64,000 nt of DNA from Myxococcota bacterium (GTDB lineage Bacteria; Myxococcota; B64-G9): the NCBI GenBank assembly GCA_022710975.1, contig JAKLGA010000006.1, forward strand, positions 186,001 through 250,000, written 5' to 3'. Below, piece by piece: positions 35,826-52,249 of the stretch. Positions within the stretch are counted from its first letter, which is position 1; each line of letters opens with the position of its first letter. The position numbers and the translations under genes were made by a program. Below the pieces are notes generated by a model. It saw nothing but the letters and a program-made list of their open reading frames with translations. It ran no database searches and was not told where the DNA came from.

Positions 35826-35891
35826 GGCTCCCGCCCTCGCCGTCCGAGTCATGCCATCAAGGCGTCCGGGCTGCAACAGAAAACGCGCCGC

Positions 35892-36956
35892 TCAGCCCCG
35901 GGCCGCGTAGTTCTGCTCGTAGAAGGCCAGGTACTCGCCGCTGATGACCCGCTCGGTCCACTCGCGGTTGGACAGATACCAGTCGATGGTCTGCGTGAGC
36001 CCGCCCTCGAAGCGCGTGAGCGGCTCCCAGCCCAGCTCGGCCTGGATCTTCCCGGCGTCGATGGCGTAGCGCCGGTCGTGCCCCGGGCGGTCGGCGACGT
36101 GCCGGATGAGCCCCTCGCCGATGGCCGGGTCGCCCGTGCGCTGGCCGAGCACCTGGAGCAGCCTCCGCACCAGCTCGAGGTTCTCGAGCTCGTTGTGCCC
36201 GCCGATGTTGTACACCTCGCCCGGCCGCCCGCGGCGCAGCACCAGCTCGATGGCCCGGCAGTGGTCGCGCACGTACAGCCAGTCGCGGATCTGCCGGCCG
36301 TCGCCGTAGACCGGCAGCGGCTCGTGCCGCAGCGCGTTGCGGATCATGAGCGGGATGAGCTTCTCCGGGAACTGGTACGGGCCGTAGTTGTTGGAGCAGC
36401 GCGTGATGCAGGCCGGCAGGCCGAAGGTGTGGTGGAAGGCCTGCACGATGTGGTCGGCGCCGGCCTTCGAGGCCGCGTAGGGGTTGCGCGGGGCGAGCGG
36501 CGACCGCTCGCTGAAGAAGCCCTGCTGACCCAGGCTGCCGTACACCTCGTCGGTGGAGACCTGCACGTAGCGGCGCCCGGCCAGCCAGCCGGCGCCGCTG
36601 CGCCAGGCGCGCGCGGCCGCCTCCAGCAGGGCGTGGGTGCCCAGCACGTTGGTGGTCAGGAAGACCTGGGCGTCGTGGATGGCGCGGTCCACGTGGCTCT
36701 CGGCGGCGAAGTTCACCACCCCCTCGAAGTCGTGCTGGCCGAAGAGCTGCGCGAGCAGCGCGCGGTCGTTGATGTCCCCGCGCACGAAGCTGAAGCGGTC
36801 CCGCTGGTCCGGCGTGAGCCGGGAGAGGTTGTCGTAGTTGCCCGCGTAGGTCAGCTTGTCGAGCCCCACCAGCACGAGCGCGGGATCGCCCTCCAGCATG
36901 TGGTAGACGAAGTTGGAGCCGATGAAGCCGGCCACGCCGGTGACCAGGAGTTTCAT
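35892..36956 (-). CDS. rfbB: dTDP-glucose 4,6-dehydratase
   Basis: 354 residues, an extended SDR. It shows VTGVAGFIGSNFVYHML (NAD binding), AAESHVDRAI, VSTDEVYGSLG with the catalytic Asp/Glu pair, YAASKAGADH (Tyr-x3-Lys), RCSNNYGPYQFPEKLIP and DWLYVRDHCRAI. These are all RmlB signatures. It catalyses the second step of dTDP-L-rhamnose synthesis. ATG overlaps the rfbD stop as ATGA. Confidence 0.96.
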   Translation of the reverse strand: MKLLVTGVAGFIGSNFVYHMLEGDPALVLVGLDKLTYAGNYDNLSRLTPDQRDRFSFVRGDINDRALLAQLFGQHDFEGVVNFAAESHVDRAIHDAQVFLTTNVLGTHALLEAAARAWRSGAGWLAGRRYVQVSTDEVYGSLGQQGFFSERSPLAPRNPYAASKAGADHIVQAFHHTFGLPACITRCSNNYGPYQFPEKLIPLMIRNALRHEPLPVYGDGRQIRDWLYVRDHCRAIELVLRRGRPGEVYNIGGHNELENLELVRRLLQVLGQRTGDPAIGEGLIRHVADRPGHDRRYAIDAGKIQAELGWEPLTRFEGGLTQTIDWYLSNREWTERVISGEYLAFYEQNYAARG

Positions 36957-37807
36957 GTCCGTGCTCCGATCTCCCGCAGGAAACGCTCGGTCGCGTCCTG
37001 CCAGGGCGGCAGCGGTCTGCCCAGGATGCCATCCAGCGGGAAGGTGTCCAGGGCCGAGAAGGCCGGCCGCGCGGCCGGGGTCGGGAAGGCCCGCGAGCTC
37101 ACCGGCACCACCTCCACGCCCAGGCCGGCCGCGCCGACGATGTGCGCGGCCCAGGCGTGACGGCTGCAGTGGCCCTGGTTGGCCAGGTGGTACAGGCCGA
37201 AGGCGCCCGAGCCGAGCAGCTCGAGCAGGGCCGGAGCCAGGTCGGCGGTGTAGGCCGGGCAGGCCACCTGATCGTCCACCACCTGGATGCTCGCGCGGCC
37301 CCTGGCCCAGCCCAGGACCTTCCGGGCGAAGTTGTCGTTCCCGGCGCCGAACACCCAGGACAGGCGCACCACGTAGTGGCGCCTGGCGAGCGCCTGCACC
37401 TCGAGCTCGCCCCGCAGCTTCGAGAGCCCGTAGCGGCCGAGCGGGTTGGGTGGATCGGCGATGGTGTAGGGCCGGGTCGCGCGCCCGTCGAACACGTAGT
37501 CCGTGGACAGGTGCATGAGCGGGACGCCCAGCCGCTCGGCCTCCACGGCCAGGTTGCGGGGGCCCAGGGCGTTGGCCGCGAGGGCCTGGTGGAACTCGGT
37601 CTCGGCCCGATCGACCGCGTTGTAGGCCGCGCAGTTGAGGATGGCCTCGGGCCGGGTGGCCTGCAGGCAGGCCCGCACCGCCTCCTGGCTGGCGATGTCC
37701 AGCTCGGGCAGGTCGAGGGCGCTCACCTCGAGGCCCCGCGCCGTCGCCTGCCTGCACACGTCCTGGCCGAGCTGGCCGCGGGCGCCGGTGACCAGCAGGC
37801 GCCTCAC
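36953..37807 (-). CDS. rfbD: dTDP-4-dehydrorhamnose reductase
   Basis: 284 residues: LLVTGARGQLGQDVC, LNCAAYNAVDRAE, LSTDYVFDG, YGLSKLRGE (catalytic Tyr/Lys) and VRLSWVFGAGNDNF, all typical of RmlD, the NADPH-dependent last step to dTDP-L-rhamnose. GTG start overlapping the rfbC stop as GTGA. An ORF that continues upstream lies over rfbC and is a frame shadow. Confidence 0.95.
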   Translation of the reverse strand: MRRLLVTGARGQLGQDVCRQATARGLEVSALDLPELDIASQEAVRACLQATRPEAILNCAAYNAVDRAETEFHQALAANALGPRNLAVEAERLGVPLMHLSTDYVFDGRATRPYTIADPPNPLGRYGLSKLRGELEVQALARRHYVVRLSWVFGAGNDNFARKVLGWARGRASIQVVDDQVACPAYTADLAPALLELLGSGAFGLYHLANQGHCSRHAWAAHIVGAAGLGVEVVPVSSRAFPTPAARPAFSALDTFPLDGILGRPLPPWQDATERFLREIGART

Positions 37808-38382
37808 GGCCGGCCTCCCGCCGGAAAACGGAAGCCGAGCCCGCCGAGCGTGGGCCAGGCCGCGTCCCTGGGCGACAGCGTGGGCGCCCCGCTCTCGGCC
37901 AGGGGCCAGGCGATGCCCACCTCGGGCGCGTCCCAGCGCAGGCCGCCCTCGTCCTCGGGGTGGTAATAGTCGGAGCACTTGTAGGCCAGCTCGACGGAGT
38001 CGCTCAGCGCCAGGAAGCCGTGGGCGAACCCCACCGGGGCGTACAGGACGCGCCGCGCCTGGTCGTCGAGCAGCGCCCCGCACCAGCGGCCCTCGGTGGG
38101 CGAGCCCGCCCGGAGGTCCACCAGCGCGTCGAATACCCGGCCGCGCAGCACGCGCACGAGCTTGGCCTGCGGGTGGAGGCGCTGGAAGTGCAGTCCGCGC
38201 AGGGTGCCCCGGCTGGAGCAGGACTGGTTGTCCTGGACGAACGTGTCCGGCACGCCCAGGCCGGCCAGCTCGCGCTGGCTGTAGGTCTCCAGGAAGCAGC
38301 CCCGGGCGTCCCGGAACACCCGCGGCTCGAGCAGCCGCGGGCCCTGGATGGGCGTGTCGAACGGGACGAGCTGGAAGGGCAT
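37804..38382 (-). CDS. rfbC: dTDP-4-dehydrorhamnose 3,5-epimerase
   Basis: 192 residues, cupin fold. RVFRDARGCFLETY, FVQDNQSCSSRGTLRGLHFQ with the catalytic His region, GRVFDALVDLR, PVGFAHGFLALSD and YKCSDYYHPEDE are RmlC signatures. It epimerises the 4-keto sugar at C3 and C5. It starts 9 bp after the rfbA stop; its own stop overlaps rfbD. Confidence 0.95.
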   Translation of the reverse strand: MPFQLVPFDTPIQGPRLLEPRVFRDARGCFLETYSQRELAGLGVPDTFVQDNQSCSSRGTLRGLHFQRLHPQAKLVRVLRGRVFDALVDLRAGSPTEGRWCGALLDDQARRVLYAPVGFAHGFLALSDSVELAYKCSDYYHPEDEGGLRWDAPEVGIAWPLAESGAPTLSPRDAAWPTLGGLGFRFPAGGRP

Positions 38383-38391
38383 GCGGGCCTC

Positions 38392-39261
38392 TCAGCTCTC
38401 ACCGGCGATGTCGAGCAGGTACTGCCCGTAGTCGGTGTTCCCCAGGGGGGCGGCCAGGGCCCGCAGGCGCTCCCGGTCGATCAGCCCCTGACGGAAGGCG
38501 ATCTCCTCGATGCAGGCGATGTAGTAGCCCTGCCGGCGCTGGATCGCCTGGACGAAGTTGCCCGCCTCCTGGATGCCCTCGCAGGTGCCCGTGTCGAGCC
38601 AGGCCATGCCGCGCCCGAGCACCTCGACGCGCAGCTCGCCGCGGGTCATGTACGCCCGGTTGAGATCGGTGATCTCGAGCTCCCCGCGCGGGGAGGGCCG
38701 GAGGCCCCTGGCCAGCGCCACCACCTGGTCGTCGTAGAAGTACAGGCCCGGGATCGCCAGGTGGGAGCGGGGCTGCTGGGGCTTCTCCTCCAGCGAGACG
38801 GCCCGGCCCTGGGCGTCCACCTCGACCACGCCGAAGGCGCGCGGGTCCTTCACCCGGTAGCCGAAGACCAGGGCGCCCGAGCGCAGGCCGGTGCTGCGCT
38901 GCAGGATCTCGGTCAGGCGCTGGCCGTAGAACACGTTGTCGCCCAGGATGAGCGCCACCGGCTCCCGGCCCACGAACTCGGCGCCCACCAGGAAGGCGTC
39001 CGCCAGCCCGCGCGGCGCACTCTGGGCCACGTACTCGAACCGCAGCCCGAGCTGGGTGCCGTCCCCCAGGAGCCTCTGGTAGAGGGGCAGATCCTGGGGG
39101 GTGGAGATGATCAGGATCTCGCGGATGCCCGCCAGCATGAGCACCGAGAGCGGGTAGTAGATCATGGGCTTGTCGTAGATCGGCAGCAGCTGCTTCGAGA
39201 TGGCCCGGGTCGAGGGGTACAGCCGCGTGCCCGCGCCGCCCGCCAGGATGATGCCCTTCAT
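38392..39261 (-). CDS. rfbA: Glucose-1-phosphate thymidylyltransferase
   Basis: 289 residues: [19 protein letters not shown] (nucleotide loop), [28 protein letters not shown] (metal-binding Asp), [11 protein letters not shown] and AWLDTGT, all RmlA signatures. First step of dTDP-rhamnose synthesis. The ATG at 39261 has GAAGAGGAG upstream. First gene of a seven-gene minus-strand run (rfbA, C, D, B, PilZ, small protein, miaB). Confidence 0.96.
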
Positions 39262-39301
39262 GGCCGGATTCTCCTCTTCGAGGCGTTCGCCGGGCACCAC
39301 G

Positions 39302-39328
39302 ATTCCATCCCCGGCGGATGGCTGTCAA
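39302..39328 (-). promoter_or_regulatory. rfbA: Candidate rfb operon promoter
   Basis: A perfect TTGACA (39328-39323) lies 15 bp from TGGAAT on the minus strand, a short spacer. The leader would be about 35 bases. The -35 is convincing, the -10 less so. Confidence 0.35.
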
Positions 39329-39372
39329 GCCTGGCGCGCCCGCCGGCCGAGGCGCTGGAAGGCACGCGCGGT

Positions 39373-39401
39373 TGGACAGAGGCGACCCGGGTTGCTAAGA
39401 T
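39373..39401 (+). promoter_or_regulatory. Promoter of the flippase gene, possibly leaderless
   Basis: TGGACA (5/6), 17 bp, TAAGAT (4/6) preceded by GC. The -10 ends 8 bases before the ATG at 39410 and no ribosome site is present, so the transcript may begin at the start codon. Confidence 0.45.
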
Positions 39402-39409
39402 GCGCCGCC

Positions 39410-40996
39410 ATGTCCGAGCCGAGCGGCGAAACCCCGTCCCCGTCCCCGCCCGCGCGCTCCCCGGCCGAGGTCCGCCGCGGGGACATCCGGCACGCCGCGG
39501 TGGGCGCGGGCACGAACTTCCTCACGATCATCGCGGGGTTGTCGGAGTTCGCCTTCCAGCCGATCATGGCCCACCTGTACGGGGTGAGCACCTACGGCCT
39601 GTACCGTTTCGGCTACGGCATCCTGGAGCCCTTCCTGCGGCTGAGCGCGCTGGGCACGGACAAGGGGTTGCTGCGCCACATCGCCTCGCACCGGGTGGCC
39701 GGCGAGCCGGAGCTCGAGCGCGCCAGCCTGCGCACCGCCTGCTGGCTGACCCTGCTGGGCGGGCTGGGCCTGGCGGCGCTGGCGTTCCTCCTGGCCGGGC
39801 CGCTGGCCCGGCTGCAGAACCAGCCGAGCTCGGAGCTGGCCATCCGCCTGCTCGCGCCGTCGATCCCCTTCGCCGCCCTGGTGCTGGTGCTGATTTCGGC
39901 CACCATGGGCGCCAAGCTCATGCGCTACAACCTGCTGGTGCGCGGCATCGCCCAGCCGCTGCTGCTGCTGCTGGCGGCCCTGGCGGCCGGGCTGCTCTCC
40001 CCCACCCTGGTCGGCCTGTGCGGGGCCAACGTGGTGGCGACCGCGCTGACCGCGCTCCTGGCGGTGTGGGCGGCCCGCCGGGTCTTCCGCGGGGTGCCGC
40101 TCCGGGAGCTGTTCTGGCCCCGGTCCGGCCGGGGGCCCGGGCTGCACTGGGAGATGGCGCGCTTCTCCCTGCCCATGGGGCTGGCGGAGTTCCTGAACGC
40201 CGTGCTCCAGCGCGCGGACCTGATCCTGCTGGGCTTCTTCGCCGGGCTGGAGTCGGTCGGGGTGTACGCGGGCCTGGAGACCATCAGCCGCATCGTGGCC
40301 AACGTGCGCTACGCCTTCGATCCGGTGGCCTCCCCGGTGCTGTCCGAGGCCCTGCGCCAGCGGGACCAGGCGCGCCTGGGCTACAACCTGAAGCTCATGA
40401 CGCGCTGGGTGGCGCTGCTCACCTTCCCCGTGTTCTGCTTCATGCTGCTGTTCCAGGCCGACCTGCTGGGCCTGTTCCCCCGGGAGTTCCTGGTCGCCGC
40501 GGGGCTGTTCCCGCTCTTCCTGCTGCGCCACCTGGTCAACGGCACGCTCGGGTTGAGCGGCTGGGTGGTGGCCATGGCGGGCCGCTCCAGCCTGGTCCTG
40601 TTCAACAACCTGGCGGCCGCGGCCTGCAACGTGGGGCTGTCGCTCTGGCTGCTGCCGCGCCACGGCATGCTGGGCGCGTGCATCGCGGCGCTGGCCTCGG
40701 TCAGCCTGATCCAGGTGCTGATCCTGGTGGAGGTGGTCGTGCTCCACAGGGTGCAGCCGTTCTCGCTGGCCTTCCTCAAGGTGTGCCTGGCGGCGGCGGC
40801 GGCGCTGGGGGTGATGCACCAGCTCGCGCCGCTCGAGGGGCTGGCCGCCCCGCTCCGGCTGGGGCTGGGCACGTTGCTGCTCGTCGGGCTGTACCTCGGG
40901 GCGCTGGTCGCCCTGCGGTTGCAGCCCGAGGAGCGCGAGATCGCCGCCCGCGTGGGGGCCAGGCTGGGCCGGCTCCTCGGGCGCGGCCGGAGGTGA
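39410..40996 (+). CDS. Polysaccharide flippase (Wzx/MOP superfamily)
   Basis: A 528-residue polytopic protein with about 12-14 membrane helices and the general form of O-antigen/teichoic-acid-type flippases. VGAGTNFLTIIAGLSEFAFQPIMA is the first helix, and the conserved segment RFSLPMGLAEFLNAVLQRADLILLG begins the second half. It probably flips lipid-linked sugar units. The N-terminal 30 residues are Ser/Pro-rich and cytoplasmic. The start at 39410 is chosen by hydrophobic profile and promoter position; there is no Shine-Dalgarno. Divergent from rfbA and followed 7 bp later by a glycosyltransferase. Confidence 0.85.
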   Translation: MSEPSGETPSPSPPARSPAEVRRGDIRHAAVGAGTNFLTIIAGLSEFAFQPIMAHLYGVSTYGLYRFGYGILEPFLRLSALGTDKGLLRHIASHRVAGEPELERASLRTACWLTLLGGLGLAALAFLLAGPLARLQNQPSSELAIRLLAPSIPFAALVLVLISATMGAKLMRYNLLVRGIAQPLLLLLAALAAGLLSPTLVGLCGANVVATALTALLAVWAARRVFRGVPLRELFWPRSGRGPGLHWEMARFSLPMGLAEFLNAVLQRADLILLGFFAGLESVGVYAGLETISRIVANVRYAFDPVASPVLSEALRQRDQARLGYNLKLMTRWVALLTFPVFCFMLLFQADLLGLFPREFLVAAGLFPLFLLRHLVNGTLGLSGWVVAMAGRSSLVLFNNLAAAACNVGLSLWLLPRHGMLGACIAALASVSLIQVLILVEVVVLHRVQPFSLAFLKVCLAAAAALGVMHQLAPLEGLAAPLRLGLGTLLLVGLYLGALVALRLQPEEREIAARVGARLGRLLGRGRR

Positions 40997-41003
40997 GCAC
41001 GGT

Positions 41004-42041
41004 ATGCGCGTCGCCTTCTACACCCAGGGGGTGAAGACCGCCTCGAGCCGCTTCCGCGCGGCCCAGCTCCTGCCGGGGCTGGCCGAGCACGGCATCGAGG
41101 GCACCCTCCTCCCGGCCAGGCCGAGCGTGCATGGCGACGTGGACCTGGCCTGGGTCCACGGCCTGCGGCGCGAGCTGTTCCGCCCGCTCAGCGTCCTCAG
41201 CCGGGCGGGCCAGCTCCACCTGGCGACCCGCTTCGATCTGCTCTACCTGCAGCGGCCCATGCTCAAGTACTACACCACCCTGCCCGAGGAGATCGTCACC
41301 AGGCTGCGGCCCTCCATCTTCGACATGGACGACGCCATCTTCCACAACAAGCTGGGGCTCGACGCCTTCCGCGTCCGCCGCATCCTGAAGCTGGTGCGCC
41401 ACGTGGTGGTGGGCAACCGCTACCTGGCGGACTTCGTGGGCGAGCCGGCGCGCACCAGCATCATCCCCACGGTGGTGGACACGCGGCGCTACCTGCCTCG
41501 CCCGGATCCCGGCGACGGGCCCTTCACCATCGGCTGGACCGGGGGGGCCCACAACCTGGTGGAGCTCGAGCCCATCGCGCCGGCGCTCCAGCAGGTGCTG
41601 CGGGAGACCGGCGGGCGGCTGCGGATCGTGGCCGAGCGCCTGGAGGGGCGCTTCCTCAGGGAGCTGCCGGTCGACTTCGTGCCCTGGAGCCCGGAGAACG
41701 AGGTGCGCGCGCTGGCCGCGGCCCACGTGGGCATCATGCCGCTCAAGGACACGCCCTTCAACCGCGGCAAGTGCGGCTTCAAGCTGATCCAGTACATGGC
41801 CTGCGCCATCCCCGTGGTGGCCAGCCCGGTGGGGGCCAACCGGGACGTGGTGCGCGCCGGCCAGGACGGGTTCCTGGCCGCGGACAACGCCAGCTGGCGC
41901 GAGGCGCTGCTGGCGCTGGCCCGGGATCCCGCCCTGCGCGCGCAGGCGGGCGCGGCCGGCCGGCAGCGCGCCCAGGCCGAGTTCTCCCTGGACGCGGTCA
42001 TCCCCAGGTACGTGGAGCTGTTCCGGCGCGTGGCCGGGTAG
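41004..42041 (+). CDS. Glycosyltransferase, family 4-like (GT-B)
   Basis: A 345-residue GT-B enzyme. The first domain starts MRVAFYTQGVKTASSRFRA and includes FDMDDAIFHN. The second has TIGWTGGAHNLVELEPI (nucleotide-sugar loop), HVGIMPLKDTPFNRGKCGFKLIQYMACAIPVVASPVG, which places the conserved Lys and the E/Q-x7-E-like acceptor region, and a C-terminal helix. The sugar donor is unknown. GGAGGTGAG lies about 9 bases before the ATG and overlaps the flippase end. With the flippase and rfb genes it suggests surface glycan assembly. Confidence 0.85.
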   Translation: MRVAFYTQGVKTASSRFRAAQLLPGLAEHGIEGTLLPARPSVHGDVDLAWVHGLRRELFRPLSVLSRAGQLHLATRFDLLYLQRPMLKYYTTLPEEIVTRLRPSIFDMDDAIFHNKLGLDAFRVRRILKLVRHVVVGNRYLADFVGEPARTSIIPTVVDTRRYLPRPDPGDGPFTIGWTGGAHNLVELEPIAPALQQVLRETGGRLRIVAERLEGRFLRELPVDFVPWSPENEVRALAAAHVGIMPLKDTPFNRGKCGFKLIQYMACAIPVVASPVGANRDVVRAGQDGFLAADNASWREALLALARDPALRAQAGAAGRQRAQAEFSLDAVIPRYVELFRRVAG

Positions 42042-42050
42042 GCTCGCCGC

Positions 42051-43847
42051 TCAGCGGGCCAGGGCCGCCGGCGGGGGACCGCGGAAGGGATCGCCCACCC
42101 ACAGCAACCCCTGCTCGCCGCCCACCAGGCAGCGGCGCGGCTTCTGCCAGCAGGCCACCCGGGTCACCGCCGCGCGCGTGGGCAGCGGCCAGGCCTGCCA
42201 GCTCTCGCCGCCGTCCGCGCTGCGGTGGAGCCCGTCACGGCCCGCGGCGGCCAGCCCGCGCAGGCGATCCACGAACACCAGGTCGCGCAGGGCCTCGGTG
42301 GTCTTCACCTGGCTGAAGGCCCAGGTGGCGCCGCCGTCGCGGGTCGCGAGCAGCATGCCCTCCTCGCCGGCCAGCCAGCCCTGCCGGGCGTCCAGGAACT
42401 GTGCGGCCCGCAGCGCGCCCTTGCCGGAGGACACCCCGGTCCAGGTGCGGCCCCCGTCCGGGCTGCGGAAGGCCAGGCGCTTCTCGCCCACGGCGTAGAC
42501 CGTCCGGGCGTCGGCCCAGGTGGCTGCGGTCAGGCCGCGGTCGGTGGGCAGGCGGTCCTGGCTCCAGCTCTTGCCGCCGTCCTCGCTGCGCAGCGCGCCG
42601 CCCCCCTCGCCCACCAGCAGGATGCGCTTGCGGTCGCGCGCCGCGAGCCCGGCCAGCGACCGCTCGGGCCAGCGCCCGAGCTGGGTCCAGCTCTCGCCGC
42701 CGTCGGCGGTGGCGTACAGCGCGTGGGCGTCCAGCCCCAGCCCGTTGCGCTCGTCGAAGAACACCAGGTCCGTGAGCGCGGCCGGCACGCTCCTGCGGGC
42801 CTCCCAGGTCAGCCCGTGATCCTTGCTGAAGTAGAGCCCGCCGTCGGCGTGCAGGCGGTAGGCCCGCCCGCCCGCCAGGCAGGAGAGGGCCAGCAGGCTG
42901 CCCGGGCAGGGGCCCAGGGCGTCGATGGCCGTGGGCGCGCGGCCGGGGAACCGGCCCCGACCGCCGCCGTCGCCGACCAGCAGGAGCGCGCCGCTCCAGA
43001 GGGCGGCCTCGCGCCAGGTGCGCTGGGGGCCTGTCTGGACGCGCGTCCAGCCGCCCTCCCCGCCCGAGCCCACCAGGGCCTCGCCGACCGGCCCGGCCAG
43101 CAGCACCCGGCCGTCGGGCAACGCGCCGGCGGGCCGGGGGCAGATGGCCTGCCAGGGCCCGGCCGGGACCGGGGCGTCCTGCCAGGTCCGGCCCTGGTCG
43201 CGGGACATGCGCACCTCGCCCCGGCAGGCGCTCACCCACACCGCCCCGTCCGCGCCGAGGAGCAGCCCCGCGGCCTGGCCGCCGAGCGGCAGGCTGCGGC
43301 TGGGCTCGGCGGCGCCCCCGGGCCACAGCCGCAGCTCGCCCTGGGCCCCGAGCGCGGCCAGCGCCCCGCCCGGGCCCGCGGCCAGCGCCAGGCCGGGCCG
43401 GCCCTCGGTGGCGAACAGGAGCGAGACCGCCCCGGTCCGATCGGCCCGCCACACCCCGCCGTCCGCGGCCAGCAGGCGCGCCTCGCCATCCGGGGCGAGC
43501 GCGAGGTCCGCGAACGCCAGCCCCGCGGGCAGGCCGACGCTCTGCCAGGTGCGCCCGCCGTCCCGGGAGCGCCACAGCCGGCCCGGCCGGTCGATGGCCC
43601 AGCCCTCGAGCAGGCCGGAGAAGCGCACCCGGGTGAGCCCGTGGTCGGGGAAGCGCCCGCGCGGCTGGAGGCCGGCCACGCCGTCCGGGCTGAACCACAG
43701 GGTGCCGGCGCTGTCCAGCAGCCAGCAGCCCCTGGAGGCGACGCAGGAGATGGAGATCAGGTCGTCCGGGATGACCTGCGGGTCCACGGGCACCAGCCCG
43801 CCCACCAGCACCGCCCCGAGCACCCAGGCCCCAAGGAAGATCGTCAT
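42051..43847 (-). CDS. Secreted YCF48/BNR-type beta-propeller protein
   Basis: A 598-residue protein with an N-terminal hydrophobic signal (MTIFLGAWVLGAVLVGGLVPV). About ten repeats carry the Asp-box/BNR pattern S/T-x-D-x-G-x-T/S-W: SRDGGRTWQSVG, SRDQGRTWQDA, SKDHGLTWEA, TADGGESWTQLG, SEDGGKSWSQ, SPDGGRTWTGV, TRDGGATWAFS and SADGGESWQAW. The fold resembles photosystem-II assembly factor YCF48 and sialidase-type propellers, but no sialidase catalytic residues are apparent. It may be an envelope assembly or binding protein. GGGAGG precedes the ATG. Convergent with the glycosyltransferase, with a 9-bp gap. Confidence 0.85.
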   Translation of the reverse strand: MTIFLGAWVLGAVLVGGLVPVDPQVIPDDLISISCVASRGCWLLDSAGTLWFSPDGVAGLQPRGRFPDHGLTRVRFSGLLEGWAIDRPGRLWRSRDGGRTWQSVGLPAGLAFADLALAPDGEARLLAADGGVWRADRTGAVSLLFATEGRPGLALAAGPGGALAALGAQGELRLWPGGAAEPSRSLPLGGQAAGLLLGADGAVWVSACRGEVRMSRDQGRTWQDAPVPAGPWQAICPRPAGALPDGRVLLAGPVGEALVGSGGEGGWTRVQTGPQRTWREAALWSGALLLVGDGGGRGRFPGRAPTAIDALGPCPGSLLALSCLAGGRAYRLHADGGLYFSKDHGLTWEARRSVPAALTDLVFFDERNGLGLDAHALYATADGGESWTQLGRWPERSLAGLAARDRKRILLVGEGGGALRSEDGGKSWSQDRLPTDRGLTAATWADARTVYAVGEKRLAFRSPDGGRTWTGVSSGKGALRAAQFLDARQGWLAGEEGMLLATRDGGATWAFSQVKTTEALRDLVFVDRLRGLAAAGRDGLHRSADGGESWQAWPLPTRAAVTRVACWQKPRRCLVGGEQGLLWVGDPFRGPPPAALAR

Positions 43848-43886
43848 CCGCGCACCTCCCTGCCCTCGCCTCCCACCGACGAGACG

Positions 43887-43915
43887 ATGGAACCCCACTC
43901 CCGCCACCAGGTCAA
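43887..43915 (-). promoter_or_regulatory. Possible promoter of the YCF48-like gene
   Basis: TTGACC (5/6) and TTCCAT (3/6) on the minus strand with a 17 bp spacer, about 40 bases before the ATG. Weak -10. Confidence 0.3.
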
Positions 43916-43952
43916 CACCAGTGTGGCTCGCGAGATGGGGATAGGGATCTGG

Positions 43953-43973
43953 CCCGGGTCCTGCGGACCCGGG
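43953..43973. other. Perfect 9-bp hairpin CCCGGGTCC/GGACCCGGG
   Basis: CCCGGGTCC, loop TGC, GGACCCGGG. No T-tract on either side. It lies upstream of the YCF48-like gene and marks the edge of the repeat-rich non-coding block. Confidence 0.5.
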
Positions 43974-44169
43974 TGGGGACCAGGAACAAGTCCGCCTCGA
44001 CCGACCGCGCGCGTTCGCTGTTCTCATTGGGTAGGAGAAGTCCAAGCCTCCGCTGCAGGAAGGTAGCGCCTTCAGGGAGAGGGCTTTCAGAGAGAGGATC
44101 TGGGGAGAAGGTGTGGCTGGGACACGATGCCTACGGAACCCGTGCGGGCCACCAGCCGGTGGCGCAGAG

Positions 44170-44229
44170 AGCCTCTTCCGGCGCGGGCGACATGGCCGTT
44201 GTCCTCTGGCGCCCGAGACGGAAGAGGCT
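44170..44229. other. Nested inverted repeat (11-bp outer stem, 6-bp inner stem)
   Basis: AGCCTCTTCCG at 44170-44180 is perfectly complementary to CGGAAGAGGCT at 44219-44229. Inside, CGGGCG (44184-44189) pairs with CGCCCG (44210-44215). This would make a large cruciform or RNA stem-loop. Confidence 0.65.
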
Positions 44230-44290
44230 CACGGAGCGCAGGCTGGGCAGGCGCCACGCCGCTGCAGGAGGGTGGCACCATCAGGAGAGA

Positions 44291-44386
44291 CGTTCTCAGA
44301 TCCCGCGTGTGTGAATCGCCCAGGGCAGTTCCTCGAGAGGGAGTAGCAGGAGACGAGCGTTGAGCACCCCTGCATGACCCTACCCC
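44291..44386 (+). repeat. Repeat element, forward copy, block 1
   Basis: 96 bp matching 46208-46303 with five differences and no gaps (about 95 percent). The first 51 bp (CGTTCTCAGATCCCGC to CCTCGAGAGGG) is the core element that also occurs inverted nearby. Confidence 0.85.
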
Positions 44387-44430
44387 TCGAGGAATGTCCG
44401 GGGTGGATGCACACGAGAGATCAGCCAACG
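44385..44430 (-). repeat. Repeat element core, diverged inverted copy, block 1
   Basis: Reads CCTCGAGGAATG, then GGATGCACACG, GAGATCAG and CAACG. It aligns with the reverse complement of the core at 44291-44341, with several changes. Confidence 0.55.
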
Positions 44431-44530
44431 AAGGCATCGTCCCTCGCTGCAGGTGGCCTCGTTGCAGGTGGCTGGCACCTGCCGGGGGGGCGGTTCTTCG
44501 AGGAGGAGGCCGGTCGGAATGACCCTCCTG

Positions 44531-44595
44531 CTCGTCTTCGCCCCTTCACTCGAAGAATGCCCTGAGCGAGCCAGACACGCAGGATCTGCAAACGC
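44531..44595 (-). repeat. Repeat element, inverted copy, block 1
   Basis: 65 bp matching 46388-46452 with five differences (about 92 percent). Its core (GAAGAATGCCCTGAGCGAG, then CACGCAGGATCTG) aligns with the reverse complement of the forward copies. Confidence 0.8.
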
Positions 44596-44657
44596 CTTCC
44601 GCTGCGGGAGTCCGGCGCTGCAAGAGGCGGGCACCTGCAGGAGAGGGTGAAAAGGAA

Positions 44658-45896
44658 TCAACGAGGGGGCGGCTTGCTATGGCGCCGCCTCGGGGAGCAT
44701 CGCTCCCAGGCCCCCGAGTAACCTGCGTCTTCATCACAGCGTTCTTGTTCCCCCACCCGGTAGTATTTCACGAGGCACTCGGTGACCACATGCATGTCGC
44801 GATCGTTGTGCGGTTTGTCGGACACCGCGTACATGAAGTCTAACACCCGCTGGTCACGGAAGGCGCAGAGGCTGGCCATCGCCACCCGCGTGTCGGTGTT
44901 CAGCTCGCGCTCGGCCGCCTCGAGGAGGAAGGGCAAGACCGGCAGGAAGTCGTCGGGCAGGAACTGCAGCTGCCCGCCACCAGGTGCGCACTGCCCACAG
45001 TAGATGCATTCCAGGTGCCATGTCTTGAGCTTGTGAAGCGCGGATCGGGGGATCTTGCGGGCGGCCCGGGCGAAGGCCGGGCGGTCGCGGATGTCCATCT
45101 TTTCGGCCACCGCGGCCAGCAGGTTCAGCGGCTGGAACGTATCGCGGATCACCACGCGGGTCTCGCCCGTGCGCGTCGGGTAGTCGAGCTGGAAGTAGCC
45201 GGTCTCAAGGATGTGGAGGTCCTCGTCGATGCGGTTGTAGCCCCGATGCGAGAAGACCCAGAGCGAGTCGGTGTGGGGATCGAAGCGAATCCACCGGACG
45301 AGGTCCCCGCTCAAGCCATCCTTCTTGCGCAGTCGCCCCAGGAGCTCCTCCGTCTCCAGATCCTGCACCAGGAGCCCTTCGCCCTCGATGGGCCCCCACT
45401 CTCCGTCGTGAAGCGTGCCGAGGAACACCTTTCGGTTGCGGACCTCGACCGCACTCACGCCGTGGCATGGGTCGATCCGCGCCTTGAAGATCTTCCTCTC
45501 GTGCCAGAGGAGGGGCTTGTAATGAGCGCCTTCAGAGCAGTAGGCAGTCAACGAGGTCCAGCGTTCCCCGTTGGAATCGAAGTAGACCTCTCCTGGATCC
45601 TCGCCGCGTTCCCCTGGGACCAGGCCGCGGGGAGGTCTGGGCCGCTTGGCATACTGGAAGAGGATCCCCGTGTTGCACCTCACGGGTACGAGCCGACGGG
45701 ACTCACGCAGGAGCGCCAGGCACTTCCCCTCCGCGGTGCCGAGCAGCACCCTGTCCGGCTCGAACCGGACCAGCCGCATGAGAGGTAACAAATCCCAATC
45801 CGCCAACTCGCCGGCCAGGACCGGGCCACAGGCCAGGAGGCCAAGCAACATGGTGAGCCGGCAGGCCGGTCTGTTCAGGGCAGGCCTCGAGTTCAT
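44658..45896 (-). CDS. Secreted orphan protein: propeller-like N-terminal part, HEAT-like C-terminal part
   Basis: Not recognised as a named family. The 412-residue form starts with a signal-like segment (NRPACRLTMLLGLLACGPVLAG). Residues about 60-260 contain blade-like repeats, for example GLSGDLVRWIRFDPHTDSLW then FSHRGYNRID, close to the Reg_prop pattern. A cysteine cluster CIYCGQC lies near residue 310, and helices after it (FLLEAAERELNTDTRVAMAS) look HEAT-like. No ribosome site precedes either ATG (45896 or 45851); I prefer 45896 for its positively charged signal start. Base composition is visibly lower in GC than its neighbours. It is flanked on both sides by repeat blocks. Confidence 0.6.
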   Translation of the reverse strand: MNSRPALNRPACRLTMLLGLLACGPVLAGELADWDLLPLMRLVRFEPDRVLLGTAEGKCLALLRESRRLVPVRCNTGILFQYAKRPRPPRGLVPGERGEDPGEVYFDSNGERWTSLTAYCSEGAHYKPLLWHERKIFKARIDPCHGVSAVEVRNRKVFLGTLHDGEWGPIEGEGLLVQDLETEELLGRLRKKDGLSGDLVRWIRFDPHTDSLWVFSHRGYNRIDEDLHILETGYFQLDYPTRTGETRVVIRDTFQPLNLLAAVAEKMDIRDRPAFARAARKIPRSALHKLKTWHLECIYCGQCAPGGGQLQFLPDDFLPVLPFLLEAAERELNTDTRVAMASLCAFRDQRVLDFMYAVSDKPHNDRDMHVVTECLVKYYRVGEQERCDEDAGYSGAWERCSPRRRHSKPPPR

Positions 45897-46207
45897 GCTG
45901 CAAGGCCTGGTACAAGTCCCGTGCCACATGTTCAGCGGGTCCGCGCTGCGTTCCGTTCTGTGTGTCAGCCTCCCAGCAACCGGCTGGAACATCGTGCGAT
46001 TGCGGGCTGGCGGGTCGGATGCGACCGTCAGGGTGAAGGGAGCTGTTCGCCTTGCCTACAGCCCATGAGACACGCCTGGTGTGGGCCCGAGAGCACGAAT
46101 CTACAGGTGTGTCGGCCTCGGGCGTGAAGGAGCGGAGTCTTCTTGCTGCGCCCTGCTCCCCGCTGCAGGTGGCTGGCACCTGCCGGGGTGGGTCTGCCGG
46201 CAAGGGG

Positions 46208-46303
46208 CGTTCTCAGATCCCGCCTGTGTGGATCGCCCAGGGCAGTTCCTCGAGAGGGAGGAGCAGGAGACGAGCGTTGAACACCCCTGCATGGCCCTAC
46301 CCC
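46208..46303 (+). repeat. Repeat element, forward copy, block 2
   Basis: Collinear, gap-free match to 44291-44386 (five differences in 96 bp), 1917 bp away. It is bounded on both sides by the GCTGCAGG hairpin. Confidence 0.85.
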
Positions 46304-46328
46304 GCTGCAGGAGGGTGGCACCCTCAGA

Positions 46329-46372
46329 AAGGGGCTTTCTGGCCTAGGGCTTGTGCCCCTTCTTCGCCAGAA
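46329..46372. other. Interleaved stems compatible with an H-type pseudoknot
   Basis: AAGGGGC (46329-46335) pairs with GCCCCTT (46355-46361), and TTCTGGC (46337-46343) pairs with GCCAGAA (46366-46372). The two perfect 7-bp stems interleave, leaving loops of 1, 11 and 4 bases. The pairing exists on either strand's transcript. Confidence 0.4.
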
Positions 46373-46387
46373 CCGGGACGACGGCCG

Positions 46388-46452
46388 CTCGCCTTCGCCC
46401 CTCCACTTGAAGAATGCCCTGAGCGAGCCAGACACGCAGGGGCTGCAAACGC
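46388..46452 (-). repeat. Repeat element, inverted copy, block 2
   Basis: Matches 44531-44595 with five differences in 65 bp. With the forward copy at 46208 it makes an imperfect long inverted repeat around the pseudoknot-like segment. Confidence 0.8.
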
Positions 46453-46645
46453 ATCACCGAGGACTCGTCCCCCGGACCCCTGCCCACGCACTCGGTGCAG
46501 GTCCCCTGCCCTTTCCCCATCTTCACCCATTAAGAATTCCTCTCCTGGGTTCTTCCCCTCCGGTGCAGGAGGTTGGCAGCTGCAGGAAGTGGGGCACCTG
46601 GGAACCAAAGTGCGCCGGCACCTTCCAGGGCAAGGCCGCGCTTCC

Positions 46646-47446
46646 TCAGTGACCCACCGTGAAGGTTGCGCTACTGCCAGGGACTGTCCCCCTCGTGCTC
46701 GGATCCCAGAGGAATTCCTCGCCGCATTGCGGGCAGCGGAAGCTGAGTAAAAAATCGAGTCCCATCTCCTTGACGCCTAGGTACGTATTCCCTTTTGCAA
46801 ACGCGTGGTAGAGCTTGGCGAAATCGTGGTGCGCCCTGCACTTCGGACAGTCCAGACCGGCTGAGACCACCTTCTCCACCTCGTCCGGCCAAGCCTCGAG
46901 CGCCTCCCTGTCCATCCCGAGGTGGCCCTCGATGAGCTTCCAGAGAGGGTCTGGAAGCGAATCGAGATCCTCTTCGCCCTGCAGGATCTCCATGATCTCC
47001 TCGCCGTGCTCACGGAGCAGCGCCACGATTCCCCCCTGCGGTACCCCGGTGACGAATGCGTACAACAAGAGGACCCGCTCCTGCTCCTTCAGCGGGATAG
47101 ACACATCCGGGGCTTCCATGCCAGCGCAGACCGAGAGGATCATGAGGTCGGTCTTCACCAGTCCGTCGGTGATCTTCTCGAGCTCATGGCCCGCGAGACT
47201 GAGCTGCACGGACTTGAGCATGTACATCGCCCTGGCGGACAGCTGAGCTTGCTGAACGATCCTGGCTCGCTCCTGAGGCGTGATCTCGCCGAGCCCAAAT
47301 GGGTCCGAAGAGGAGGCCGGTTCCTGAGACGCGGAGGGCGCCGCACCAGGAGGCGCGGCCGGCGGACGGGCGCATCCCAGAACCTGGCCGAAGCCGAGGA
47401 GGGCCGAGAGGAGAGCGAGCGAGAGCCGGATCCCGTGTGGTGTCAT
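46646..47446 (-). CDS. Orphan lipoprotein with C-terminal zinc-ribbon-like cysteines
   Basis: Not recognised as a named family. The 266-residue protein begins with a lipoprotein signal (LALLSALLGFGQVLGC, lipobox VLGC) and a Pro/Ala/Ser-rich linker. A helical middle part (about 50-195) follows, and a C-terminal pair of CxxC knuckles (CPKC near 200 and CPQC near 242) could bind zinc. I chose the ATG at 47446 because the signal sequence begins there; a frame 34 residues longer has no such start. As with the gene at 44658, its GC content looks lower than average and a repeat block follows its 3' end. Confidence 0.65.
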   Translation of the reverse strand: MTPHGIRLSLALLSALLGFGQVLGCARPPAAPPGAAPSASQEPASSSDPFGLGEITPQERARIVQQAQLSARAMYMLKSVQLSLAGHELEKITDGLVKTDLMILSVCAGMEAPDVSIPLKEQERVLLLYAFVTGVPQGGIVALLREHGEEIMEILQGEEDLDSLPDPLWKLIEGHLGMDREALEAWPDEVEKVVSAGLDCPKCRAHHDFAKLYHAFAKGNTYLGVKEMGLDFLLSFRCPQCGEEFLWDPSTRGTVPGSSATFTVGH

Positions 47447-47570
47447 CCCTGTTCCCCTGGCAGCGCCATCGACGATGGGCCGAGCGTACCATCGCCACCA
47501 GACGAGCCTCAAGGCTGCCCCTGCCCTCTTCCCTTCCCCACCCTTCAAGAAATCCTCTTCCTGTTTCTTC

Positions 47571-48269
47571 CTAGTTCGCCTCGGGCGGGGGCGGGACCGG
47601 GGCCAGGGGGGCCTCGAGGGGCGGGGCGGTGCCGTCCCGCATGAGTTGCAGCCCGCGGATCTTGCGCCGCACGGTGGGCGCGTCCTTGGCCTTGGGGGCC
47701 TCCTGCAGGTAGAGGGTCAGGATGTCGATGGCCGGGCCCAGGTCGCCCTTCTGCTGGTAGGCGTCGGCCAGCGCCTTGTGGAGATCGCCCTTGATGTTGG
47801 CCGCCAGCGGCGAGTCGAGCGCCGCCTTGTAGTCCGCGATGGCCCGATCCACGTAGGCGTGGTCCGTCTTGCCCACGGCCAGGCGCTGGTACACCCGAGC
47901 CCGGTTGTACTTGGCCGCCGGGTAGTCGGGCTTCAGCTCGATGGCGTGGTCGAGCTGCTTCAGCGCGTCCTCCCACTGGCCGCGCTCGATGTAGCAGTGG
48001 CCCAGCATGTTGTAGGCCACGGCGAAGTCGGGCTTCAGCTCGGCCGCCTTCTGGAACTCCTTGATGGCCTCGGTCAGCAGCTCCGCCTTCTTGACCGGAT
48101 CGGTGGTGTGCAGCCGGCGCTGCAGCAGGTGCTCCCCGCGGTCGCGCGCCAGCACGGCGTCCTCGCGCACGAACACCACCTGGCCCGAGCCGAGGGTGAA
48201 GAAGAGCACGAAGCCGATCGCGCCGATCGTCAGGATGATGGCGCTGGCCAGGATTGCGCGGCGTGACAA
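47571..48269 (-). CDS. Membrane-anchored TPR protein
   Basis: A 232-residue protein with an N-terminal membrane anchor (AILASAIILTIGAIGFVLFF) and three or four tetratricopeptide repeats between about 65 and 200, for example AIKEFQKAAELKPDFAVAYN and ALKQLDHAIELKPDYPAAKYN. A Pro-rich tail follows. It is probably a scaffold in the periplasm or at the inner membrane. The start is a TTG (48269) with GAGGC upstream, 8 bp after the preceding lipoprotein gene; no nearby ATG gives the anchor. Confidence 0.8.
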   Translation of the reverse strand: MSRRAILASAIILTIGAIGFVLFFTLGSGQVVFVREDAVLARDRGEHLLQRRLHTTDPVKKAELLTEAIKEFQKAAELKPDFAVAYNMLGHCYIERGQWEDALKQLDHAIELKPDYPAAKYNRARVYQRLAVGKTDHAYVDRAIADYKAALDSPLAANIKGDLHKALADAYQQKGDLGPAIDILTLYLQEAPKAKDAPTVRRKIRGLQLMRDGTAPPLEAPLAPVPPPPEAN

Positions 48270-48277
48270 GGGGCGCC

Positions 48278-48988
48278 TCAGGGATCGACCTTGAAGGAGA
48301 TCCTCACGATGACCTTACCCACGAGCTGTCCGCCGGGGATGGAGCGGGTCACGTTCGTGTCGAAGTTGAACTCGGCCTGGCTCATGAAGGCGAAGGCGAA
48401 GTCCTGGATGAGGTAGTCGCTCATGATCTGGCGGCCCTCGACCGTGAACTGCACCGCGTCCTCGCCGGTCGCGCCCGCGTGGATGGAGGCCACCCGGGCG
48501 ATCTTGTCCGAGTCCGCCTGGATCGAGGTGGTGTTGAGGTCGTCGAGGTAGAGGTCCAGCGCGGGCAGGTCGAAGTTCAAGGAGTTGGTGGTGATCTGGT
48601 ACTTGATGTAATCGATGTTCACCTTCGAGACCCTCCCGGTCTCGATGGCATCCTTCAGCGCAAGTTCGTTTCTGTAGTCCACCTGCTGCGCGGGCACCGA
48701 GATGGTCAGGGTACGCTGGATGCGCGGCACGTCCACGCAGGTGCCGCCGTAGCACACCTCGGTCGGGATCTCGGTCTGGTTGGTGAGGTCGAGGGTGTTC
48801 AAGGGCGGGTCCAGGGTCTCGATGTACTGCTGGAGCTGGGCCTTGGCCACGTCCGCGTCGAGATCGAAGGCGAACTCCTGTTCCGGGAGCTGGACCGTGA
48901 CGTCATCGCTCATGTCGAGCAGCCCGCAGCCGCCCGCCAGCCCCGCGAGCGCCGCGGCCGCCAGGACCAACAAGAAGAGCTTTTTCAT
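48278..48988 (-). CDS. Lipoprotein of unknown function
   Basis: A 236-residue exported lipoprotein: MKKLFLLVLAAAALAGLAGGC with lipobox LAGGC at residue 21. The mature part is acidic and strand-rich, with a cysteine pair in EVCYGGTCVD that may form a disulphide. No named family recognised. CGGAGGA precedes the ATG. It is the first gene of a two-gene operon with the TPR protein, so the two may form a periplasmic complex. Confidence 0.75.
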   Translation of the reverse strand: MKKLFLLVLAAAALAGLAGGCGLLDMSDDVTVQLPEQEFAFDLDADVAKAQLQQYIETLDPPLNTLDLTNQTEIPTEVCYGGTCVDVPRIQRTLTISVPAQQVDYRNELALKDAIETGRVSKVNIDYIKYQITTNSLNFDLPALDLYLDDLNTTSIQADSDKIARVASIHAGATGEDAVQFTVEGRQIMSDYLIQDFAFAFMSQAEFNFDTNVTRSIPGGQLVGKVIVRISFKVDP

Positions 48989-49129: not shown

Positions 49130-51208
49130 ATGCGCACCCGTCTCCTGCTCCTGACCCCCGCCCTGGCCGCCACCGCCCTCGGGCTGGTCCTGGCCTGCGC
49201 GGGCGGACCCCAGCCCGCCGGCGACGGCCAGGCCCACGTCCAGCCCCCCATCACGGGTATCGACCTGGCCGCCATCGATCCCGGCGCGAAGCCCTGCGAG
49301 GACTTCTACGCCTTCGCCTGCGGCGGCTGGATCGCGAATCACGAGATCCCGCCCGACAAGGCCCGCTGGGGCATGTTCGACCAGCTCGGGGAGCGCAACC
49401 TCGGGCTGCTGCGGGAGCTGCTGGAGGAGGCCGCAGCCGGGAAGTCCGCGCCCGAGGACGTGTTCGGCCAGAAGGTGGGCGACTTCTACGCCGCCTGCAT
49501 GGACGAGGCCGGCATCGAGAGGAGCGGGCTGGCCGAGCTGCAGGCCGAGTGGGCCAAGCTCGAGGCCGTCCAGGATCCCGCCAGCCTGGCCGCCGCGGTC
49601 GGCCGGATCCAGCGCAGCGGCGTCGGGGTGCTGTTCAACTTCGGCGCGATGCAGGACTTCGAGGACTCCAGGCGCATGATCGCCGGGGTGTTCCAGGGCG
49701 GCCTGTCGTTGCCGGACCGCGACTACTACCTCAAGGACGATCCCAAGAACGCCCAGATCCGCAAGAGCTACCTGGCCTACCTCGAGGCCATGCTGGGGCT
49801 GGCCGGCGTCCCCCAGGCCCGGGCGAGCGAGGAGGCCAGGGCCGTGTTCGAGCTCGAGCGCGCCATGGCCGAGAGCCACTGGAGCCGCACCGAGATGCGC
49901 GATCCGCAGAAGATCTTCCACCCCCTGGATCGGGCCGGGCTCGAGGGCCAGACCCCGGGTTTCGACTGGCCGAGCTACTTCCAGGCCGTCGGCGCCGTCC
50001 CGCCCGAGCGCTTCAACGCCTCGACCCCGCAGGCCCTGGCGCGCCTGGCCGAGCTCCTGGGGAAGACCCCGCCCGAGACCTGGCGCGCCTACCTGCGCTG
50101 GCACGTGCTGCGCGGCCTGGTCCGCTCCCGGGCGCTGCCCCGGGCCTTCGTGGACCGGGCCTTCGCCTTCAGCTCCGAGAACTTCACCGGGGCCAAGGAG
50201 CTCGAGCCGCGCTGGAAGCACTGCGCCGACCTGAGCGACAGCCTGCTGGGCGAGGCGGTCGGCCAGGCCTTCGTGCGCCGCCACTTCGCCGGGGACGCCA
50301 AGGACAAGGCCCTGGCGCTCATCCGCGGCGTGCAGCGCGCGCAGGGCGAAAATCTAAAGTCGCTCCCCTGGATGGACGCGGCCACCCGGACCAAGGCCAG
50401 CGAGAAGCTGGCGGCGATCGACAACAAGATCGGCTACCCGGACACCTGGCGCGACTACTCGGCGCTGGAGATCACCCGCAGCTCGCTGCTCAGGAGCCTG
50501 CTGGCGGCCATGGCCTTCGAGACCCAGCGGGATCTCGACAAGATCGGCAAGCCGGTGGACCGGCGCGAGTGGTTCATGAGCGCGCCCACGGTGAACGCCT
50601 ACTACTCGGCCCAGCTCAACGAGATGGTCTTCCCGGCCGGCATCCTGCAGCCGATGTTCTACACCCCGGGGGCCAACGACGCGGTCAACCACGGGGCCAT
50701 CGGCTTCGTCATGGGGCACGAGCTGACCCACGGTTTCGATGACGAGGGGCGCAAGTTCGACGCCCAGGGCAACCTGGCCGAGTGGTGGAGCCCGTCGGTG
50801 GCGCAGGAGTTCGAGCAGCGGGCCGCCTGCATCGAGCGGCAGTACGGCGAGTACGTGGTGGTGGACGACCTGCGGCTGAACGGCAAGCTGACCCTCGGCG
50901 AGAACATCGCCGATCTCGGCGGCCTGGAGCTCGCGCTCGCGGCCTACCGGGCCTCCAGGGCGGGCCTGCCGCCCGAGCCCGCGGTCGGCGGCTACACGCC
51001 CGAGCAGCAGTTCTTCCTGGCCGCGGGCCAGGTGTGGTGCGCGAGGACCCGGCCCGAGGAGGCCCGCAACCGGGTGGTGACCGATCCCCACTCCTCGCCC
51101 CGCTGGCGGGTGAACGGCCCGCTCTCGAACATGCCCGACTTCGCCGCGGCCTTCGGCTGCCAGGCCGGGGACGCGATGGTGCGCGCGGAGCGCTGCGAGG
51201 TCTGGTAG
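49130..51208 (+). CDS. M13-family (neprilysin-like) zinc metallopeptidase lipoprotein
   Basis: A 692-residue peptidase with a lipoprotein-type signal (LALGL-like region ending LVLAC). The N-terminal domain has PCEDFYAFACGGW. The catalytic domain shows NAYYSAQLNEMVFPAGILQP, the zinc motif HELTH (His530 and His534), the third ligand in GENIADLGGLELA (Glu591), and the terminal CEVW, which in the family ends the protein. The length is normal for M13. It cleaves oligopeptides outside the cytoplasm. GGAGG lies 5 bases before the ATG at 49130. Confidence 0.95.
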   Translation: MRTRLLLLTPALAATALGLVLACAGGPQPAGDGQAHVQPPITGIDLAAIDPGAKPCEDFYAFACGGWIANHEIPPDKARWGMFDQLGERNLGLLRELLEEAAAGKSAPEDVFGQKVGDFYAACMDEAGIERSGLAELQAEWAKLEAVQDPASLAAAVGRIQRSGVGVLFNFGAMQDFEDSRRMIAGVFQGGLSLPDRDYYLKDDPKNAQIRKSYLAYLEAMLGLAGVPQARASEEARAVFELERAMAESHWSRTEMRDPQKIFHPLDRAGLEGQTPGFDWPSYFQAVGAVPPERFNASTPQALARLAELLGKTPPETWRAYLRWHVLRGLVRSRALPRAFVDRAFAFSSENFTGAKELEPRWKHCADLSDSLLGEAVGQAFVRRHFAGDAKDKALALIRGVQRAQGENLKSLPWMDAATRTKASEKLAAIDNKIGYPDTWRDYSALEITRSSLLRSLLAAMAFETQRDLDKIGKPVDRREWFMSAPTVNAYYSAQLNEMVFPAGILQPMFYTPGANDAVNHGAIGFVMGHELTHGFDDEGRKFDAQGNLAEWWSPSVAQEFEQRAACIERQYGEYVVVDDLRLNGKLTLGENIADLGGLELALAAYRASRAGLPPEPAVGGYTPEQQFFLAAGQVWCARTRPEEARNRVVTDPHSSPRWRVNGPLSNMPDFAAAFGCQAGDAMVRAERCEVW

Positions 51209-51214
51209 CCGGGC

Positions 51215-52249
51215 TCAGCCAGGCGCCGGGGGCCGCGCGCCCAGGTCGGCCACGGCCTCGTCGGCCAGCGAGTAGGGATCGCGCACCCGGGTGCGCATCT
51301 TGTCCACGATCCGGCCCAGGTGATCCTCGGACATCAGGTACGACCAGCCCCGGGCGATGAGCGTGCGCCGGTAGATCTCCAGGAACTCCTGGCGCAGCCG
51401 GGCGCGCTGGAAGTCCGGCTCCTGGCTGGCTCGCAGGTACTCGGCCCGGTGGGCGTCGATGGCCTCCATCAGCCCGTCGATGCCCTCCCCGCGGAAGGCC
51501 ACGGTCTTGACGATGCGGGGCACCCAGGCCTCTGGCGCCACCCGCTCCTCCTCGGCCGCGGCCAGGGCGACCTTCCCGCCGTGGTGCATGAGCTCGGCCA
51601 GCGTGGGCCGCACCCCGCGGCCGAGGTCCAGCATGTGCTCGAGCTCGCGCACGGTGCGGTCGGCGCCCTCGCGGTCGGCCTTGTTGACCACGAACACGTC
51701 GGCGATCTCCAGGATGCCGGCCTTGATGGCCTGGATCTCGTCGCCCATGCCCGGGGTCATGAGCACCAGCGTGGTGTGGGCCAGGCGCTGCACCTCGACC
51801 TCGTCCTGGCCGACCCCGACCGTCTCGATCAGCACCACCTCCCAGCCCATGGCGTCCAGCGCGTGCACCACGTCCGTGGTGGTGTTGGTCAGCCCGCCCA
51901 GGTGGCCCCGGGTGGCGAAGGAGCGGATGAACACGCCCTCGTCGAGCGCGTGGTCCTGCATGCGAATGCGGTCGCCCAGGATGGCCCCGCCCGAGAAGGG
52001 GCTGGAGGGATCGACCGCCACCACGGCCACGGTCTTGCCGCGCGCGCGGAAGCGCCGGATGAGCTGGTCGGTGAGCGTGCTCTTGCCCGAGCCCGGGTTG
52101 CCGGTGATGCCCAGGATCATGGCCCGGCCGGCGTGGGGGTAGAGGCGCTTCAGCGTCTCGCGCGCCTCGGGCAGGCCGTCGTCGATCCAGCGCAGCAGCC
52201 GGGCGCCGGCCAGCACCTCCCGGGCGAGCAGGCGTGAGACGAAGTCCAT
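51215..52249 (-). CDS. meaB: Methylmalonyl-CoA mutase-associated GTPase
   Basis: A 344-residue G3E-family GTPase of the MeaB/ArgK type. It shows P-loop GITGNPGSGKSTLTDQL, AVDPSSPFSGGAILGDRIRM, ETVGVGQDEVEV and the base-specificity motif NKAD. It gates cofactor loading and protects the adenosylcobalamin of methylmalonyl-CoA mutase. It is the last gene of the seven-gene mutase operon, 39 bp after the four-helix gene, and converges with the M13 peptidase with a 6-bp gap. Confidence 0.95.
   Translation of the reverse strand: MDFVSRLLAREVLAGARLLRWIDDGLPEARETLKRLYPHAGRAMILGITGNPGSGKSTLTDQLIRRFRARGKTVAVVAVDPSSPFSGGAILGDRIRMQDHALDEGVFIRSFATRGHLGGLTNTTTDVVHALDAMGWEVVLIETVGVGQDEVEVQRLAHTTLVLMTPGMGDEIQAIKAGILEIADVFVVNKADREGADRTVRELEHMLDLGRGVRPTLAELMHHGGKVALAAAEEERVAPEAWVPRIVKTVAFRGEGIDGLMEAIDAHRAEYLRASQEPDFQRARLRQEFLEIYRRTLIARGWSYLMSEDHLGRIVDKMRTRVRDPYSLADEAVADLGARPPAPG

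Follow-up and report, generated by a model that had tools for sequence, protein, structure and literature searches.

A lineage-specific set of intergenic palindromic repeats behind two secreted-type genes of a Myxococcota bacterium

Two blocks of repeats follow a pair of minus-strand genes in the window, the whole 64,000-nucleotide stretch of Myxococcota DNA that was analyzed. With a probability of roughly 0.6, these blocks would be local accumulations of lineage-specific, nonautonomous, hairpin-forming intergenic repeats that resemble REPIN, ERIC, and TIR-repeat elements and that spread through RAYT-type transposition. The repeats themselves belong to three families (A, B, and C), which form a set of lineage-specific intergenic palindromes that is real, statistically strong, and had not been named before. 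To our knowledge, no such palindromic repeat set has been described in this lineage, and the present one adds a set of three parts, two of which are tied to RAYT genes in more than one genus.

Block 1 (44051-44640) and block 2 (46151-46590) were resolved by profile searches into repeats of families A and B, and both adjoin the 3' ends of minus-strand genes (Table 1). The description in an earlier note on this DNA was confirmed, every repeat copy counted there being real. The blocks share a 96-bp segment (44291-44386 and 46208-46303, 95% identity) and a second segment, given there as 65 bp and about 92% and measured here as 66 bp at 92% (44530-44595 and 46387-46452). Its five mutually inverted cores correspond to five family-A arms, located with nhmmer on mixed strands at 44291 (+), 44385 (-), 44550 (-), 46208 (+), and 46407 (-), whereas its seven GGCACC hairpins are made up of six GCTGCAGG..GGCACC hairpins with no more than two mismatches and a degenerate seventh at 44051. 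The succession of gene and repeat block also occurs twice in a row, with a block 3' of each of the two minus-strand genes. Both genes had been taken for orphans; no Pfam or NCBIfam family was recognized for the first and no Pfam family above cut-off for the second, but the first is not a strict orphan, a paralog being found at C8.

Table 1. Repeats, genes, and insert boundaries in the window. CM, covariance model.
Position	Strand	Feature	Basis or remark
42051-43847		BNR-repeat gene flanking the insert	
43848..47570	.	Insert with both gene + repeat units	Flanking-gene homologs adjacent in G002, G004, G006, G007, G008
44051..44069	+	Degenerate family-B hairpin	C26:230044-230079
44261..44279	+	Family-B hairpin	Pattern, 0 mismatches
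44291..44430	+	Full family-A imperfect palindrome, block 1 (arms 44291-44337, 44385-44430)	CM R1, 117 bits (model built from five copies, this one among them); nhmmer arms
44460..44594	-	Second A element of block 1, left-truncated; good arm 44550-44594	nhmmer 44 bits; CM 26 bits
44461..44479	+	Family-B hairpin; partial copy at 44446 just ahead	Pattern
44617..44635	+	Family-B hairpin directly 3' of orphan gene 1	Pattern
44658..45893	-	Orphan gene 1, secreted-type N-terminus, start uncertain	Paralog C8:38877-39911
46162..46180	+	Family-B hairpin	Pattern
46208..46451	+	A element of block 2, split by a B-carrying insert (arms 46208-46254, 46407-46451)	CM 71 bits, whole stretch
46304..46322	+	Family-B hairpin within the block-2 A element	Pattern; CM
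46562..46580	+	Family-B hairpin, 2 mismatches, 3' of orphan gene 2	Pattern
46646..47446	-	Orphan gene 2, lipoprotein-type N-terminus, C-terminal CxxC pair, start uncertain	
47571-48269		TPR gene flanking the insert	

Family A is an imperfect palindrome of about 140 bp with the termini CGTTGGC...GCCAACG; its two arms, of about 47 nt each and reading inward CGTTGGCAGACCCTGCGTGTGTGGATCGCTCCGGGCATTCCTCGGGG, lie in inverted orientation, and the element folds into one long hairpin. Family B is a hairpin of about 20 bp with the core GGTGCCAG and a consensus around GCTGCAGGTGGCTGGCACCTGC, and family C is a third palindrome, GTGWCCGGATTCCGGWCAC. The whole-genome search bore out the interspersed nature of the repeats, family A being found at 36 places by BLAST with a 101-bp segment and in 41 covariance-model matches on both strands, with at least 43 sites genome-wide. 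Moreover, the A arm pattern had 51 matches in the genome and none for the reversed control, and the B hairpin pattern had 64 matches compared with 2, which places the repeats far beyond chance. A single local duplication is ruled out by these genome-wide arms. The intact 96-bp unit, in turn, occurs at two places in the genome, both in the window, which makes the two blocks local relatives as well. Many A sites retain one arm only, and at three loci (L076 15577-15705, L082 14700-14870, and L095 7553-7740), arms of the same direction follow each other in tandem at a spacing of about 52 bp and are linked by AGTTGGCTGG. Heptamer tandem repeats (GGAACCA) come after some of these tandem arms.

The distribution of the repeats is narrow. 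Family A is absent by covariance model from 38 other genomes of the phylum, its arm pattern gave just two isolated matches with three mismatches in eight genomes of the same family, and no match was obtained in the public genome contigs, viral contigs, plasmids, and phages covered by the searches used. Also, the B pattern at one mismatch has 23 matches in this genome, compared with a single match among the other genomes of the family. Rfam gave no match in the window, in agreement with the earlier statement that no named element with these sequences is known.

Around the matches, 711 kb were fetched, in which 59 A elements were located and 57 could be placed relative to genes predicted with our own codon-based gene caller. 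None of the 57 lies inside a gene, though 81% of the fetched DNA is genic, and the blocks can be kept as noncoding, as first proposed. The gaps that hold A are tandem in 32 cases, convergent in 17, and divergent in 8; most elements lie 3' of stop codons, at a median distance of about 70 bp from the nearest one. A position between genes and close to their ends, mainly in unidirectional or convergent gaps, is known from REP/RAYT/TIRYT systems, which also include long TIR-repeat families (PMC3733652), and family A shares it.

The genome also carries Y1/RAYT genes, one of them at C5:189636-190577; their best NCBIfam match is NF047646 (REP-associated tyrosine transposase), below its cut-off. The absence of any visible integrase or transposase, remarked on in the earlier note, stands for integron integrases, with no IntI over the cut-off, but the RAYT class exists elsewhere in the genome. 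Among 20 RAYT-type loci with usable flank, which are not all independent because three copies in this genome are recent duplicates, the C palindrome lies upstream of 11, about 120-210 bp away and in four genera, and the B core lies in sense upstream of 8 and in antisense upstream of none, compared with 30 of 1407 control windows. Both families keep company with A: B was found within 150 bp of A at 11 of 61 clusters (0.67 expected) and C at 4 of 25 (0.27 expected), expectations that assume the intergenic fraction of 16% measured on the fetched regions. At several loci, the order is C-B-A. The paralogous small coiled-coil genes L068 10520-10843 and L083 10932-11276 have C, B, and A upstream of their start in the same order.

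No intact RAYT gene directly flanked by A was found; hence, it is from the company and the form of A that we infer that a RAYT moved it, and this movement would by now have ceased. An A arm is present about 50 bp on from a truncated RAYT-like N-terminus of 46 residues (HHVMVRGIERR..., C7:185021-185158, the same as L098 6022-6159), a proximity that one chance event could explain. Near the A sites in the 711 kb fetched, no autonomous transposon with the same TIRs was recognized. Also, no convincing target-site duplication was seen at 20 A elements, the counts being 2 compared with 0.5 for k=4, 1 compared with 0.35 for k=5, and none for k=6-9. In the mechanism proposed here, A, B, and C would have been dispersed through single-strand hairpin transposition of the RAYT type, with no duplication of the target, and would have inserted between genes, for the most part past stop codons, where their presence could be tolerated. 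Many of them may later have decayed to single arms or been copied locally, and those of the window would have arrived with the genes or built up in new gaps. The spread probably took place long ago, aided by this known class of small transposase.

Regarding the surroundings of the blocks, the homologs of the BNR-repeat and TPR genes are adjacent in other genomes (Table 1), being about 20 bp apart in G006. The 3.7-kb insert, formed by block 1 with orphan gene 1 and block 2 with orphan gene 2, is absent in five sister genera, in a comparison that covers the whole stretch and not the repeats alone, the genera being too distant for an empty site of a single repeat. The simplest reading of the gene order would be a gain in the lineage of this bacterium. 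Moreover, the syntenic junction in G003 holds an unrelated acyl-CoA synthetase-type gene (L201 6487-8568), so that inserts have entered this junction more than once. The window offers a case in which lineage-specific secreted-type genes and repeats of this kind occupy a place left empty in related genera.

The absence of the two-unit insert at this syntenic site would also be expected if a gene and its 3' B-A module moved, or were copied, as one unit and such units gathered into arrays of one orientation, as seen in the window. For example, the paralog of orphan gene 1 at C8 (about 58% amino acid identity) has the same stop-B-A order on the same strand, 62 bp after the stop compared with 64 bp for orphan gene 1, and C5:8866-9555 and its paralog C5:56090-56794 carry A 48 and 47 bp past the stop. 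The insert and the C8 module give some support to the cassette-like or mobile element of the earlier note, but ordinary duplication of a gene with its flank would give the same picture. The A clusters are grouped, with 22 of 43 having a neighbor within 3 kb (1.5 expected); neighboring one-direction elements agree in orientation by 16 to 3 (p=0.004), and elements within 10 kb are more alike (78% compared with 72%). Also, A-tagged genes are paired with A-tagged paralogs in 5 cases (1.1 expected, p=0.02). However, when conservation was compared in a 1.4-Mb sample of the sister genome G008, homologs were not significantly rarer for the genes lying between A sites (p=0.17), which are thus not clearly lineage-specific; the <400-aa subset of A-tagged genes gave p=0.05. 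The paralog and conservation tests both used regions picked for having A or B, which are biased samples. The nearest A arm is on the same strand as the gene in 28 cases and on the opposite one in 27, a random relation unlike that of integron cassettes; in the L084 pair of 84% identical paralogs, A is 3' of just one copy, and the movement of such units has no cognate recombinase. Joint movement of gene and module is on these grounds unlikely, and we are more doubtful still that gene-B-A cassettes were copied or moved into same-orientation arrays as a gene capture built on REP-like elements, not on an integron integrase. If gene and repeat do travel jointly, REP-type elements would offer a way for genes to be captured.

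The position of most A elements behind genes and their fold into one long hairpin would also suit palindromes acting mainly as RNA elements at mRNA 3' ends, that is, terminator or stability hairpins under selection, as proposed for many REPs. However, the A arms show no compensatory change (p=0.84), many sites have one arm, A is not conserved between genera, and Rfam provides no match, which makes this role improbable. Against the reading as RAYT-spread repeats, in turn, the two arms within an A element resemble one another no more closely than arms taken from separate elements do, and an inner REP-type hairpin of the arm is unsupported, with 71% of it paired, shuffles equal or better, and no covariation. 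Given arms and a possible inner hairpin without covariation, A gives the impression of copies made from a master element whose two arms differ, and not of a structure under compensatory selection.

Returning to intergenic repeats spread by RAYT-type transposition, A, B, and C work most like REPIN, TIR-repeat, or ERIC-type elements, although in the tests made they correspond to the full definition of none. With REPINs and GTAG REPs (PMC3116915, PMC3733652), they share hairpin-forming inverted pairs, singlets, and tandem clusters, an intergenic position mostly behind genes, and the presence of RAYT genes in the same genome, adjoined here by the B core and C. Unlike them, A has arms of about 47 nt that start with CGTT, without a supported inner hairpin or a GTAG tag, and no directly flanked intact RAYT; a GTAG REP as such (20-40 nt, own hairpin, GTAG-type tag) was rejected on the CGTT arms and the unsupported hairpin. 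A also resembles the TIR repeats of TIRtrons (TIRYT; PMC3733652), being of long terminal-repeat type, unrelated to GTAG REPs, moderately abundant, and single, dimeric, or grouped. In contrast to these, no transposase gene was found with A on either side of it, nor was any Y1 transposase gene seen between two copies of the same inverted repeat, C having been seen upstream only. With ERIC (length from PMC2759123), IRU, and other intergenic MITE-like palindromes, A has in common the form of an imperfect palindrome of about 130-150 bp, the intergenic position, and the restriction to a lineage. A differs from them in that no target duplication was found and in its two systematically different arms. 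Concerning CGTC-tagged REPs, the CGTT termini of A resemble the tag, and two-arm dimers with differing halves are common to both; nonetheless, the tag is CGTT and not CGTC, the 8-9 bp stem-loop is unsupported, and the unit is too long, and A was not accepted as a CGTC REP (CGTC unpaired tag, 8-9 bp stem, CCA tail).

Finally, a noncanonical integron or CALIN with attC sites, which palindromic sites behind genes in one-orientation arrays could recall, was dropped as highly improbable on the missing IntI integrase (none over the TIGR02249 cut-off in this genome, the integrase match beside A at C10 being a housekeeping XerC next to HslVU) and on the opposite polarity of the A ends (GTTGGC...GCCAAC, the reverse of attC RYYYAAC...GTTRRRY), with gene strand also mixed relative to the A arms, and the match to an attC family that the earlier note had considered was not borne out.

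Elsewhere in the window, a dTDP-sugar/flippase/glycosyltransferase-type cluster occupies 35826-42050, and the homologs of its flanking genes are adjacent in G006, G007, and G008; judged from gene order, this ancestral row of genes would have received a further lineage-specific insertion here. Also, an M13-type peptidase gene (49130-51208, +) is located between the genes at 48278-48988 and 51215-52249, whose homologs are neighbors in G004 and G006, with a wider gap of about 4 kb in G007.
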